Assembly (NCBI RefSeq): GCF_036195045.1
Contig: NZ_CP108100.1
Span: 7,812,001-7,876,000, forward strand
Length of the DNA stretch: 64,000 nucleotides
Direction of reading: 5' to 3'
Source of the DNA: Streptomyces sp. NBC_00236
GTDB lineage: Bacteria > Actinomycetota > Actinomycetes > Streptomycetales > Streptomycetaceae
In this document: one piece after another, positions 139-3,928 of the stretch
How the letters are laid out: every line of letters starts with the position of its first letter
Position numbering within the stretch: the stretch's first letter is position 1
Translations under genes and position numbers: made by a program
The notes under the pieces: generated by a model
What the model was told of the DNA's origin: nothing
The model's database searches: none
What the model saw: the letters and a program-made list of their open reading frames with translations, nothing else

Positions 139-798
139 TCAGCGGGTTTCGACCAGGCGGGCGAAGGCCACCACGTTGCCGTCGTAACCGTTCGCCTTCG
201 TGTATCCGCCGCCGCAGGTGATGACCCGCAGTTCCGCCTGTCCCGTGTCGCCGTACACCCGGGCGCCGGGGAAGTCGTTCTTGGAGAACACCTCGACTCC
301 GTAGACCTCGAACACGGCGATACGGTCGTCACTGCGGGCGACCTCGACGCGGTTGCCCTTCTTCAGCGAGCCGAGTCCGTAGAACACGGCGGGGCCAGCC
401 TGGTTGTCGACGTGACCGACGATGACGGAGGTGCCGAGCTGCCCCGGCGCGATGCCGTTCTGGTACCAGCCGGCCAGGTTGGGGTCCTGCGGGGGCGGTG
501 TCTCGATCCAGCCGTTCGCGTCGAGGTTCACGTCGACCACCGGTGCGTCGACCCCGATCGAGGGGATGGCCACGCGTGCGACGGGCGCGTACGCCAGCGG
601 CTTCACGGCCGGGCCGGCCACCGGGGTCCCCGGGGCGATCTTCTGGTGGCCCACCGATGTGGCGGCGACCGGCTGCGGCGGACCGGGTGAGAGGTCCGCT
701 CCGTTCCGCATCAACGCGAGACCGGTGAGCATCGCCAGTGCGAGTGCGCCCCACGGCGAGTGTCTGATCCGTTCTGGGCGCCAGTTGTCCCGGCCCAT
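139..798 (-). CDS. Class F sortase, membrane-anchored transpeptidase
   Basis: A 219-residue cysteine transpeptidase expected to act outside the membrane, cutting a C-terminal sorting signal and attaching the protein to the cell wall. A signal anchor lies at residues 16-30. The sortase core carries His129 in VGHVDN, Cys195 in VITCGGG and Arg214 in FARLV, the expected catalytic triad. The short size, single N-terminal anchor and lack of a C-terminal helix fit the actinobacterial class F group. The ATG at 798 follows AAGGGAGAACC, a good ribosome site. Two genes to the right encode paralogous secreted proteins with matching hydrophobic, Arg-rich C-termini and are the obvious candidate substrates. 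The family call is firm; the substrate is inferred. Confidence 0.92.
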   Translation of the reverse strand: MGRDNWRPERIRHSPWGALALAMLTGLALMRNGADLSPGPPQPVAATSVGHQKIAPGTPVAGPAVKPLAYAPVARVAIPSIGVDAPVVDVNLDANGWIETPPPQDPNLAGWYQNGIAPGQLGTSVIVGHVDNQAGPAVFYGLGSLKKGNRVEVARSDDRIAVFEVYGVEVFSKNDFPGARVYGDTGQAELRVITCGGGYTKANGYDGNVVAFARLVETR

Positions 799-1111
799 GG
801 TTCTCCCTTCGTCGCGACGAGGGGAACGCTAGGCGCGGGTCGGCCGGGCGGCATTCAGGGAGGCGCGAACGGGTGGCGGCGACCCGGCGGGCTGCTTATC
901 GGAGTAGCGGCCGGAGAAAACTTCTGACGGTCTGTGACCTGCGGGTCCATCAGGTTCACGGGTGTTCGCCCGGTGTGTCGGATCACCGGGGTGGAGCAGT
1001 CCCGAAATGCGGTGGATCAAGGATCTGGTGAGGGTTCGTCATGGGAGGCGTTCTCGTCGAACCATCCCGGTGCACAGAGCTCCGGGGCGCTTCCCGCTGG
1101 AGGTTCGAACG
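799..1111. other. 313-bp spacer between divergent sortase and surface-protein genes
   Basis: No convincing gene here. It should carry the promoters of both divergent neighbours. The plus-strand frame stays open upstream of 1112, but that stretch has no coding character and the ribosome site supports 1112 as the start. Confidence 0.5.
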
Positions 1112-1771
1112 ATGCGTGCTACACGCGCTCTCGTTGTCGCCGCGACCGCCGTCGCCGCCCTCGGGCTCGGTGCCCCGATGGCCGCAGCCGGTGGAGACGT
1201 CGGGAACGGCCAGAACAACGGCAACAGCCAGAACGACTGGAACGACCCGGGCGACTGGGACAACGGAGACGGCAACGGCAACGGAGGCAACGGAGGCAAC
1301 GGCGGAAACGGCGGAAACGGCGGGAACGGCGGGAACGGCGGGAACGGCGGGAACGGCGGGAACGGCCGCAACAACGGTCCGAACAACGTGACCGTCGACC
1401 CCGAGCGCGTCCACCAGGGCGCGGCCATGCAGGTCAGCGCCGAGGGCTGCGGCCGTGGCGGCAGCGTCTCGTCCAACGCGTTCCGCACCACGAGGCTTTC
1501 GGCGGGCCGGGTCGGCCACGCCCGGGTCCGGATCTTCAACGACGCGACGCCCGGCTCCTACAACCTGACGGTGCGCTGCGACGGCACCGACCGGACGGCC
1601 GGACACCGCTTCACCGTGCTCAACAGCCGTGGCGCGCAGGGCGGCTTCGGCGGCTCGATGGCCGCGAGCCCGGCGGAGATGGGCGTCGGAGCGGGCCTGG
1701 CCGCCTCGGCGGCCCTCGGCGGAGGCATGTACTTCATGCGCCGCCGGAGGACGGGCAATGGGGCGATCTGA
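1112..1771 (+). CDS. Secreted Gly/Asn-repeat surface protein, candidate sortase substrate
   Basis: 219 residues. The start is set by GGAGG eight bases upstream. A signal peptide (1-26) is followed by a Gly-Gly-Asn repeat (about 54-86) built from 9-bp DNA repeats. A folded domain of about 80 residues follows, with two cysteines (113, 156), then the motif QGGFGGS (176-182), a hydrophobic segment (190-208) and the tail RRRR. Domain and tail match the convergent neighbour at 1864-2418, including Cys spacing (43 versus 42 residues). The layout is that of a wall-sorting signal, but no LPxTG or LAxTG is present. Role unknown; a surface location is likely, and linkage by the adjacent class F sortase is inferred. 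Confidence 0.85.
   Translation: MRATRALVVAATAVAALGLGAPMAAAGGDVGNGQNNGNSQNDWNDPGDWDNGDGNGNGGNGGNGGNGGNGGNGGNGGNGGNGGNGRNNGPNNVTVDPERVHQGAAMQVSAEGCGRGGSVSSNAFRTTRLSAGRVGHARVRIFNDATPGSYNLTVRCDGTDRTAGHRFTVLNSRGAQGGFGGSMAASPAEMGVGAGLAASAALGGGMYFMRRRRTGNGAI
1268..1369 (+). repeat. 9-bp tandem repeats encoding Gly-Gly-Asn
   Basis: About eleven in-frame copies of a 9-bp unit close to GGCGGGAAC, with variants GGAGGCAAC and GGCGGAAAC. The later copies are nearly identical, so copy number may vary between strains while the frame is kept. Confidence 0.8.
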
Positions 1772-1803
1772 CCGTAAGGACGCACCCACCGGCCCGATAA
1801 CCG

Positions 1804-1842
1804 AAGTCGCCCCGAGTCCTCCAAGAGGACCCGGGGCGACTT
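1804..1842. terminator. Bidirectional terminator between convergent surface-protein genes
   Basis: Near-perfect inverted repeat: AAGTCGCCCCGAGTCCTC pairs with GAGGACCCGGGGCGACTT around a 3-nt loop, with one mismatch. TTTCG follows on the plus strand. It sits between the stops at 1771 and 1864. Confidence 0.85.
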
Positions 1843-1863
1843 TCGTTCCGCCGGCGGTGCCGG

Positions 1864-2418
1864 TCAGTGCGAGCGGCTCTCCTTGCGCCGCCGCACCACG
1901 AAGACGGTGCCGGTGGCGGCGGCCACGGCCAGCGCGGTGCCGGCCACGATCTCGCCGGTGTCCATGCTGTCGATGCTGCCGCCGAGACCGCCCTGCACAC
2001 CGGCCGGGGAGGCGGTGGACACCGCGGAGCTCGTCGAGCTCGTGGTGGGTGTGCTGGTGGCGGCGCTGATGGTGAGGTTCACCTTGGCCGTGGAGACCGG
2101 CGAGGTGTTGCAGGTGAACGTCACCTCATAGGCGGCGCCCGGCTTGGCGTCCGAGTCGACTGTCGCCCGCCCGGTGCCGCCCTGGGGGATGGTGACGGTG
2201 TCGAACACCCCCGAGGACGCCGTGGCCGTGGTGGAGCAGCCCCTGGCCGCCAGGGTGACCTGGCCGCCGGGCGCGATCACCGAAGGCGTGACGGTGTACC
2301 CGCTCCCGCTGTTGGACGGTCCGCCCGTGGTAGCGGCATACGCGGTCACGGCCGGGGCGGTCAGGGCGAGTGCTGCGGCGCCGAGCAGAGCGACGGGGGT
2401 GACACGTATTGCGCGCAT
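1864..2418 (-). CDS. Secreted surface protein, second candidate sortase substrate
   Basis: 184 residues. The start at 2418 follows GGAGGATTCACC; an upstream in-frame ATG at 2466 would put residues ahead of the signal peptide. A signal peptide (1-29) precedes a domain of about 80 residues (41-118) with cysteines 61 and 103, homologous to the 1112-1771 product. A Ser/Thr-rich linker (119-137) leads to GVQGGLGGS (140-148), a hydrophobic segment (156-175) and the tail RRRKESRSH. The linker replaces the Gly-Asn repeat of the paralogue. The shared QGG[FL]GGS motif ahead of the membrane segment is the most striking feature. Probably a wall- or membrane-anchored surface protein; function unknown. Confidence 0.85.
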   Translation of the reverse strand: MRAIRVTPVALLGAAALALTAPAVTAYAATTGGPSNSGSGYTVTPSVIAPGGQVTLAARGCSTTATASSGVFDTVTIPQGGTGRATVDSDAKPGAAYEVTFTCNTSPVSTAKVNLTISAATSTPTTSSTSSAVSTASPAGVQGGLGGSIDSMDTGEIVAGTALAVAAATGTVFVVRRRKESRSH

Positions 2419-2590: not shown

Positions 2591-3358
2591 CTATCCGCCC
2601 GCCGCGCCGGGGAACAGATCAAGGAACGGTGCGGCGGTGGCCGAGATGCCCCGGCCGAAGGGGGAGTCGAAGTCCCAGATGAGGAAGAGGAGGAAGGCGA
2701 TCAGGACGCTGAAGAGACCGGCCAGCAGGAGTTCGCGGAACGTCCGGCGGATCTGCAGGGTGAAGATCAGCCCCACCGTCACCAGTGCCCCGGTGATCAG
2801 CCCGAACCAGACGACGCCCGGCATCGTGGCTCCCGCGCTCTGCCCCCGTGCGTTGCGGGCGTCGTCCGCTGCCGCGACCTGGTCGACCAGCGGCTGGTAG
2901 GCCTGCCCCTCGTGGTCCGTCTTCGGCCGGTAGTCCGTGACGTCGGCGCGTACCCGGTCCAGGAGCTCACCGCCCCGGTCGCCGAGGGTGCCGTGCTCGC
3001 TCATCGTCCGCCATTCGTCGTGCACGACGTAGCTGACGTAGGCGTCGACGTCCGCGCGGATCCGGTTGCGGACCTCGACCGGGTAGACGGACGAGCGTGC
3101 GCTGACCTCGTGCAGGGCCTGTGCCTCCTGGCGTACGTACTCCTGGGCGGCGCCGCGGCCCTCCCAGACGCCCGCGATGGCGAGGCCCAGCACGATGGCG
3201 TAGACCACCCCGATCATCATCGTCATGTACTCGATGACGTCAGGGGTCTCGGACGGGTCGTCGTCCTCGGGAAGGCGACGGTTGTTGAGTACGGCGATGG
3301 TCAGCACGACGGTGCTGGCCGCGGCCATGGCGAGGGTGAGAACCAGCCATTCCGACAT
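2591..3358 (-). CDS. DUF4239 integral membrane protein
   Basis: 255 residues, with membrane segments near residues 3-23, 45-64, 186-206 and 212-230. A charged loop of about 115 residues separates the two pairs. This is the layout of the DUF4239 (bestrophin-like) family, which has no established biochemical role. The ATG at 3358 follows a GGAGG site. Only 15 bp separate it from the end of the upstream polyproline gene on the same strand, so the two are probably one operon. Confidence 0.85.
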   Translation of the reverse strand: MSEWLVLTLAMAAASTVVLTIAVLNNRRLPEDDDPSETPDVIEYMTMMIGVVYAIVLGLAIAGVWEGRGAAQEYVRQEAQALHEVSARSSVYPVEVRNRIRADVDAYVSYVVHDEWRTMSEHGTLGDRGGELLDRVRADVTDYRPKTDHEGQAYQPLVDQVAAADDARNARGQSAGATMPGVVWFGLITGALVTVGLIFTLQIRRTFRELLLAGLFSVLIAFLLFLIWDFDSPFGRGISATAAPFLDLFPGAAGG

Positions 3359-3373: not shown

Positions 3374-3928
3374 TCATCGGGAACGGGGCCGCAGTACGGC
3401 GACGGCGAACACTGCGGGGGCTGTGATCATCAAAGTGAGCGTGACCAGGGAGGTTTGGCGTTCCGGGGCCTTCCGTACGGGTCTGCGGTACGAGGGAAGC
3501 GCCACGGGCGCGGGTGGCGCCGGGCGTGCGGACGGTGTGGGGGACGGGGACGGAATGGGCGACGGGGACGGTGTGGGGGGCGGAGGCGGGGTGGGCGCAG
3601 GAGGCGGCTCGGGAGGGGGAGCGGGAACGGGCGGTGGCGGTGGCGGAGGCGGCGGAGGTGGCGGTGGCGGTGGAGGTGGCGGTGGCGGTGGAGGAGGTGG
3701 AGGCGGGGGCTTCGGTTTCGGAGACGGCGGGGGAGTGGGCTCCGGCACCGGCCCCGCGTAGCAGCTGCCGTCGCCGCTCTCGGCCACCGCCACACCGCCG
3801 TCACCGTCCCCGATGGAGGCGTACGCGCAGCTGTCGGCCAGCGCGGGCGTCGGGGCGGTCAGCAGCCAGGTGAGTGCGACGGCCGCGGTGAGTCGGCCGA
3901 TGAGTGATCCGTACACGAGGGGCAGCAT
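3374..3928 (-). CDS. Secreted polyproline surface protein
   Basis: 184 residues from the ATG at 3928, chosen because a signal peptide starts there (MLPLVYGSLIGRL, cleavage near ALADS). The frame is open further upstream but without coding character. After a short acidic region comes 27 consecutive prolines, then mixed Pro-Ser/Pro-Ala repeats, a basic stretch, a C-terminal membrane helix and the tail RPRSR. It resembles a wall-spanning stalk fixed in the membrane. It lacks the QGGxGGS motif of the nearby sortase candidates. Function unknown. Such proline runs stall ribosomes and normally need elongation factor P. Confidence 0.7.
   Translation of the reverse strand: MLPLVYGSLIGRLTAAVALTWLLTAPTPALADSCAYASIGDGDGGVAVAESGDGSCYAGPVPEPTPPPSPKPKPPPPPPPPPPPPPPPPPPPPPPPPPPPVPAPPPEPPPAPTPPPPPTPSPSPIPSPSPTPSARPAPPAPVALPSYRRPVRKAPERQTSLVTLTLMITAPAVFAVAVLRPRSR

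Follow-up and report, generated by a model that had tools for sequence, protein, structure and literature searches.

We analyzed a window of 64,000 nucleotides from Streptomyces sp. NBC_00236, corresponding to bases 7812001-7876000 of its 8.33 Mb single-contig genome. Near its start lie a class F sortase gene and the genes of two predicted secreted proteins, hereafter tail proteins 1 and 2, whose C-terminal tails combine a Gly-rich motif, a hydrophobic helix and a basic end without LPxTG. Comparison with other class F sortase loci suggests that these tails are sorting signals of the adjacent sortase. The sortase and protein 1 genes are arranged head to head, and the genes of proteins 1 and 2 tail to tail. 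In the list below, in window positions, signal peptides were judged by eye and the helices with their basic ends were read from the sequence.

139..798, minus strand: class F sortase, 219 amino acids (NF033748, 207.6 bits, cut-off 166)
1112..1771, plus strand: tail protein 1, 219 amino acids, with a signal peptide, an (NGG)n linker, a domain containing Cys113 and Cys156, GAQGGFGGS, a hydrophobic helix and RRRR
1276..1366, plus strand: tandem repeat (period 9, 10.1 copies) coding for the Gly/Asn linker of protein 1
1385..1621, plus strand: domain of protein 1 homologous to the domain of protein 2 (hhalign)
1631..1657, plus strand: GAQGGFGGS motif of protein 1, residues 174-182
1688..1750, plus strand: hydrophobic helix of protein 1 followed by RRRR (residues 193-213)
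1864..2418, minus strand: tail protein 2, 184 amino acids, with a signal peptide, an immunoglobulin (Ig)-like domain containing Cys61 and Cys103, a Ser/Thr-rich linker, GVQGGLGGS, a hydrophobic helix and RRRK
1882..1950, minus strand: hydrophobic helix of protein 2 followed by RRRK (residues 157-179)
1975..2001, minus strand: GVQGGLGGS motif of protein 2, residues 140-148, with a proposed cut between G143 and G144 suggested by alignment with GVxTG
2065..2301, minus strand: residues 40-118 of protein 2, an Ig-like beta sandwich (mean predicted local distance difference test score, pLDDT, of 85-96 per block of ten residues)

The original prediction of a class F sortase with two neighbors ending in G[AV]QGG[FL]GGS, a hydrophobic stretch and Arg residues agrees with these coordinates, with the NF033748 match and with the residue positions. 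The sortase has an N-terminal hydrophobic segment at about residues 16-30 and a predicted sortase fold (AlphaFold2 model; best Foldseek match 5hu4, E 2.2e-9). H129 and C195, the predicted catalytic pair, are invariant among the genome's seven class F sortases and in a 29-sequence alignment, in which R191 is likewise invariant. So is N208 in both alignments; its distance of 13 residues C-terminal to C195 suggests that it occupies the position of the catalytic Arg of other sortases. An Asn replacing this Arg has been reported for actinobacterial class F sortases in the consulted part of PMC6998099. In the wider set of 104 class F sortases described below, the pattern at the Arg position reads N in 90 and D in 5, with no reading in 9; Ser was found there in two sortases (L236 and L242). 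The NF033748 score, the His/Cys pair and the Asn agree with membership in class F, and the enzyme is a predicted transpeptidase.

Proteins 1 and 2 reach no Pfam or NCBIfam cut-off. The claim that their domains preceding the motif are homologous, with matched cysteines, was borne out: the two families are homologous over their full length (hhalign probability 99.6, E 1.9e-24), and the Cys spacing is 43 in protein 1 and 42 in protein 2. A degenerate DNA pattern for QGG[LF]GGS, with CAG as the Gln codon, occurs only at these two sites in the whole genome, and the motif here is not a chance occurrence. Among relatives of protein 2 with full-length similarity, the motif glycines rank with the most conserved residues. 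An alignment of 44 sequences (window protein 2, 36 relatives and seven of the protein 1 group) has G146 invariant and G140, G143, G144 and G147 in at least 90%. In a closer set of 20, hand-picked out of the 120 relatives listed, there is no variation at G140, G143 and G146 and almost none at V141, G144, L145, G147 and S148. As shown below, the fourth position of this motif, G143 in protein 2, can be G, A or T. The conserved unit starts at G[AV], so that QGGxGGS is not its natural boundary, and the window motif would be the Gly form of a broader signal, GVx[T/A/G]GxGG.

Six further class F sortases of this genome score over the cut-off, and each adjoins a secreted, anchored protein of the same plan, with the motifs GVHTGGGA, HVKTGVGGS, PVRAGGGGT, GVRAGAGGS, PVDAGDGST and GVAAG. 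To find orthologous loci, we used all seven of these enzymes as queries against a set with a single genome for each species; the best 80 of 590 places, all in Streptomyces, were retained. At least one tail was present in 78 of these best 80 loci and at least two tails in 59, with none found at L034 and L042. Protein 2 orthologs carry GVRGGLGGS, GVQGGLGGS, GVHAGEGGS and similar sequences; of the 63 readable tails of this family, 36 have Gly and 27 have Ala at position 4. Gly stands at this position in 71 of the 73 protein 1 rows. The two Ala rows (L084 and L088) are probably protein 2 tails, misfiled owing to an over-long reading of the sortase frame.

Pairing was then assessed in 21 genomes, namely that of the window, 12 of the genus and 8 of the order. 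They contain 104 class F sortase matches of at least 85 bits, for which flanks of about 5 kb on each side were taken, shortened at contig ends. A motif-bearing, anchored, secreted neighbor lies beside 87 of the 104; of the 104 partner labels, 36 were assigned or confirmed by hand. The remaining 17 comprise ten without a partner, four at a contig edge, two with a partner lacking the motif and one ambiguous case. Of the 87 partnered sortases, 41 have a partner with T at position 4, 33 one with A and 9 one with G, and four have two partners, one with G and one with A. In a FastTree phylogeny of 102 of the 104 sortases, several long branches of which were flagged by the program, the position 4 type requires few changes: 11 for T (32.1 when shuffled), 11 for A (28.0) and 5 for G (8.8), and none of 500 shuffles was as low. 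One clade of 16 sortases, including that of the window, holds eight of the nine G rows and all four G-plus-A rows; the other G row, L126, lies outside.

The motif is concentrated close to the sortases. As a distance control we took secreted open reading frames (ORFs) with a C-terminal helix and a basic end in the sortase loci, a set of related rows for which the motif pattern was partly tuned on the same data. The full motif is present in 89 of 91 such ORFs directly upstream and co-directional with the sortase, in 17 of 19 upstream and opposite, and in 1 of 3 downstream. It falls to 20 of 37 at 0.7-2.5 kb, protein 2 counterparts included, and to 2 of 34 at distances of at least 2.5 kb. A stricter pattern, settled ahead of the retrieval of the class-level loci, matched 18 of 29 near ORFs versus 0 of 9 far ones (p 0.0013). 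By ectodomain, the 123 partners group into 38 clusters, some of which consist of spurious ORFs; this indicates that the tail is common to unrelated proteins. The largest cluster, with 52 members from 20 genomes, contains window-type tails (GAQGG, GVRGG) alongside PVRAG, SVKTG and PPKAG.

The pairing extends beyond the genus. Among 59 genomes of the class, 26 encode a class F sortase over the cut-off and 33 none. Outside the genus we inspected 42 sortases, comprising every one that reaches the cut-off (40) and two that narrowly miss it, and accepted by hand a motif-bearing neighbor for 35. Four of these (the first sortase of L230, L241, L252 and L254) were accepted through a match to the NCBIfam model GVDTG_CTERM alone. 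Motif forms include GGVATG, GGVDTG, GAPATG and GVDAGGGG. No partner was accepted for the seven others (L225, L228, L229, L235, L239 at a contig edge, L240 and L251). At L227 (G034:C7:87343-101949), two class F sortases separated by about 3.7 kb and three GGAxTG partners form a small cluster.

GVDTG_CTERM (NF058571, GVDTG sorting domain) represents the T form. At E values up to 1e-4 it gave 23 matches in 19 of the 59 genomes. For 22 of these matches the distance to a class F sortase is at most 1.6 kb; the one exception starts at profile position 11 and extends over hardly more than the helix. For all 15 matches over the cut-off this distance is at most 0.91 kb, and each of the 14 genomes containing them belongs to the 28 that encode a class F sortase scoring at least 145 bits (p 3e-6). 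In the window's own genome, ten matches were obtained at E values up to 0.1. Five start at profile positions 1-5 and therefore span the motif; each of these adjoins a class F sortase. The other five, which start at position 10 or beyond, do not, and three of them correspond to LAETG or LASTG proteins. The window tails resemble the GVDTG_CTERM domain in the order GVx-small-G, spacer, helix and Arg residues and in their class F sortase adjacency, which for the model is found here and is outside its published definition. They differ in having Gly at position 4, where the family name indicates Thr, and in scoring under the cut-off. Elsewhere in the genus, two GVDTG_CTERM matches are protein 1 counterparts by position, strand and tail score, and one of them, in G036, passes at 29.4 bits against a cut-off of 29. 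The original view that the motif was undescribed thus needs qualification, since a model of the T form exists; no paper describing GVDTG_CTERM was found in the literature covered.

A tail model was built from 21 window-type tail rows, two of them with copying slips. Given this origin, its matches beside orthologous sortases are not independent evidence. It yielded 71 matches in the 21 genomes, 60 with the motif and 11 without; of these, 38 and one, respectively, have a class F sortase no more than 3 kb away. The original prediction had asked whether such tails occur in genomes without a class F sortase, and in the genomes covered none did. Among the 21 genomes, G013 alone lacks a real one (22.5 bits), and the tail model gave no motif-bearing match there. 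Among the 59 class members, motif-bearing matches were obtained only in five genomes, all with a sortase over the cut-off.

We consider it likely, with a probability of about 0.8, that the tail is the sorting signal of the adjacent class F sortase, with Gly replacing Thr or Ala before the cut, and that proteins 1 and 2 are its dedicated substrates. The original proposal that the motif is the recognition site of this sortase is thus well supported by comparison, as the motif recurs beside class F sortases throughout the class and on unrelated ectodomains and its position 4 follows the sortase tree; its restriction to QGG did not stand. Judging from their sequences, both proteins would be exported and then stay in the membrane through their C-terminal helix and Arg residues. 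The sortase would bind the motif, and C195 would attack the bond following position 4 (Gly143 of protein 2, Gly177 of protein 1). By analogy with the aligned T and A forms, this cut would free GxGGS and the helix from the ectodomain. Streptomyces peptidoglycan contains an LL-diaminopimelate-Gly bridge. The enzyme would hand the ectodomain to an amino group of the peptidoglycan precursor, probably that of this Gly. The window signal would then be the Gly form of the signal found beside most class F sortases examined, which has T, A or G at position 4.

Several observations weigh against this interpretation. A Gly-Gly scissile bond is, to our knowledge, unusual for a sortase. Two partners of class F sortases (L120 and L162) lack the motif and still have a signal peptide, a helix and a basic end, and the motif is decayed in at least seven relatives of protein 2 (P0023, P0035, P0047, P0049, P0051, P0063 and P0085). 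Tails with L[PA]x[TS]G were found in 4 of 108 anchored ORFs within 1.3 kb of class F sortases, and in the window's own genome an LARTG protein lies 2.0 kb from the sortase at the PVRAG locus. The window tails score under the GVDTG_CTERM cut-off of 29, with 19.6 bits for protein 2 (22.9 as an open frame) and 18.0 for protein 1, which was absent from the search that gave 19.6. In the part of PMC13251363 available, a quadruple class F sortase mutant of Actinoplanes showed no phenotypic change. As sortase and tail are inherited together, the agreement of position 4 with the sortase tree may reflect shared ancestry; it would be expected of an enzyme and its substrate, and also of two co-inherited genes. 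Finally, 22 of the 60 motif-bearing tail-model matches have no class F sortase at a distance of 3 kb or less. Eighteen of the 22 were inspected, and most are secreted proteins with no sortase nearby. Such orphan tails imply either that one sortase serves several substrates or that the motif has another reader. For at least one, L222, which is at a contig end, an assembly break may be the explanation, since a sortase of matching type (L119) is at another contig end of the same genome. Some of the orphan tails L206-L223 lie in recurring neighborhoods, with L213, L219 and L221 alike, L208 and L223 alike, and L210, L211 and L220 alike.

Alternatively, the Gly-rich stretch might be a flexible spacer before a permanent membrane anchor, the adjacent sortase acting on another target. 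The tails contain no LPxTG, Gly/Ser linkers are common in high-GC genomes, and the nearby protein encoded at 3374-3928 (-) also ends in a hydrophobic segment and RPRSR, in its case without the motif. Such a spacer, however, need not hold Gly at fixed places across unrelated ectodomains, nor adjoin class F sortases, as the motif does in the distance control (89 of 91 upstream versus 2 of 34 far). This explanation, which the original prediction had offered as an alternative, is a poor fit to the data and we regard it as unlikely.

It is more improbable still that the tail has another reader, either an intramembrane protease of the rhombosortase kind or a sortase of class E. The GlyGly-CTERM tails of Vibrio and others likewise have a Gly/Ser-rich motif followed by a hydrophobic region and positive charges, Arg included, according to the portion of PMC6219818 consulted, and the window's own genome has four class E sortases over the cut-off and three rhomboid-like places. 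The reader of GlyGly-CTERM is a rhomboid-family protease, however, and no rhomboid place here attains the rhombosortase cut-off (best 54.5 of 84 bits, with no control genome over the cut-off either) or lies near the window. The GlyGly_CTERM model (TIGR03501) did not match the tails, although controls were equally silent. None of the class E sortases is near the window. Least probable of all is that a degenerate LPxTG nearer the helix is the sorting site, namely residues 152-155 of protein 2 (MDTG) with PAEMG at the aligned place in protein 1: MDTG is close to the helix, as LPxTG is, and Pfam Gram_pos_anchor (PF00746) matches there weakly (residues 155-180 of protein 2, 13.3 bits, gathering cut-off 20; protein 1 unlisted), but orthologs have MDSGE, MNSGE, MDPAE, MNTVE or LDLKE, losing TG and mostly retaining the acidic residue, and position 5 of the GVDTG_CTERM profile aligns with residue 140, the G of GVQGG, which places the profile's GVDTG probably on GVQGG.

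The class F sortase of Cutibacterium (Propionibacterium) acnes, whose biochemistry has reportedly been published, is said to be an LPxTG enzyme and to be called a housekeeping sortase in the title of that report. It shares its class, by name, with the enzymes studied here, whose neighbors lack LPxTG and most of which have a neighbor of their own. The closest precedent is in Actinoplanes missouriensis, where AMIS_11010 and AMIS_36440 adjoin srtF1 and srtF4 and were suggested as possible substrates (PMC13251363, as far as available). By their description, these proteins resemble the tail proteins in having a signal peptide, a transmembrane region, a basic tail and no known pentapeptide, for want of which they were set aside; they differ in being two genes of one species for which the available text names no motif. 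Neither the Gly-Gly form nor the class-wide pairing was found in the literature covered, which excludes preprints and most subscription papers, and this Actinoplanes study, in its available part, came nearest. The class E sortases of Streptomyces and their LAxTG substrates likewise represent wall sorting by a non-LPxTG motif in the same genus; they involve another sortase class and a motif with Thr at position 4 (PMC5148588, consulted in part). Three LAxTG proteins examined in the window's own genome are far from both its class E and its class F sortases.

Class F sortases have been described as having no designated function (PMC6998099) and physiological roles that are unknown (PMC13251363), both sources being available in part. 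If the pairing proposed here is right, most of them (87/104) gain a candidate substrate and peptide, and searches for LPxTG-like motifs overlook a large set of wall proteins. A broader proposal, for and against which we see the balance as even, is that actinomycete class F sortases form a sorting system of their own, in which each sortase gene is accompanied by its own substrate gene and GVx-[T/A/G]-G-x-G-G takes the place of LPxTG. In one Streptomyces lineage the enzyme would now cut Gly-Gly, leaving the exported protein with a Gly C terminus and the membrane with a GxGGS stub whose N terminus could be usable as an acceptor. A sortase accepting Gly before the cut would, if confirmed, be a new peptide ligation tool independent of LPxTG.

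Two further genes lie close to the locus. A Bestrophin-like protein (PF14023, 202.4 bits) is encoded at 2591-3358 (-), adjoining it. The protein at 3374-3928 (-), near protein 2, is secreted, with a long poly-Pro stretch, the C-terminal segment and RPRSR end mentioned above and no Gly motif; it is possibly a plain-anchored contrast to the tail proteins.

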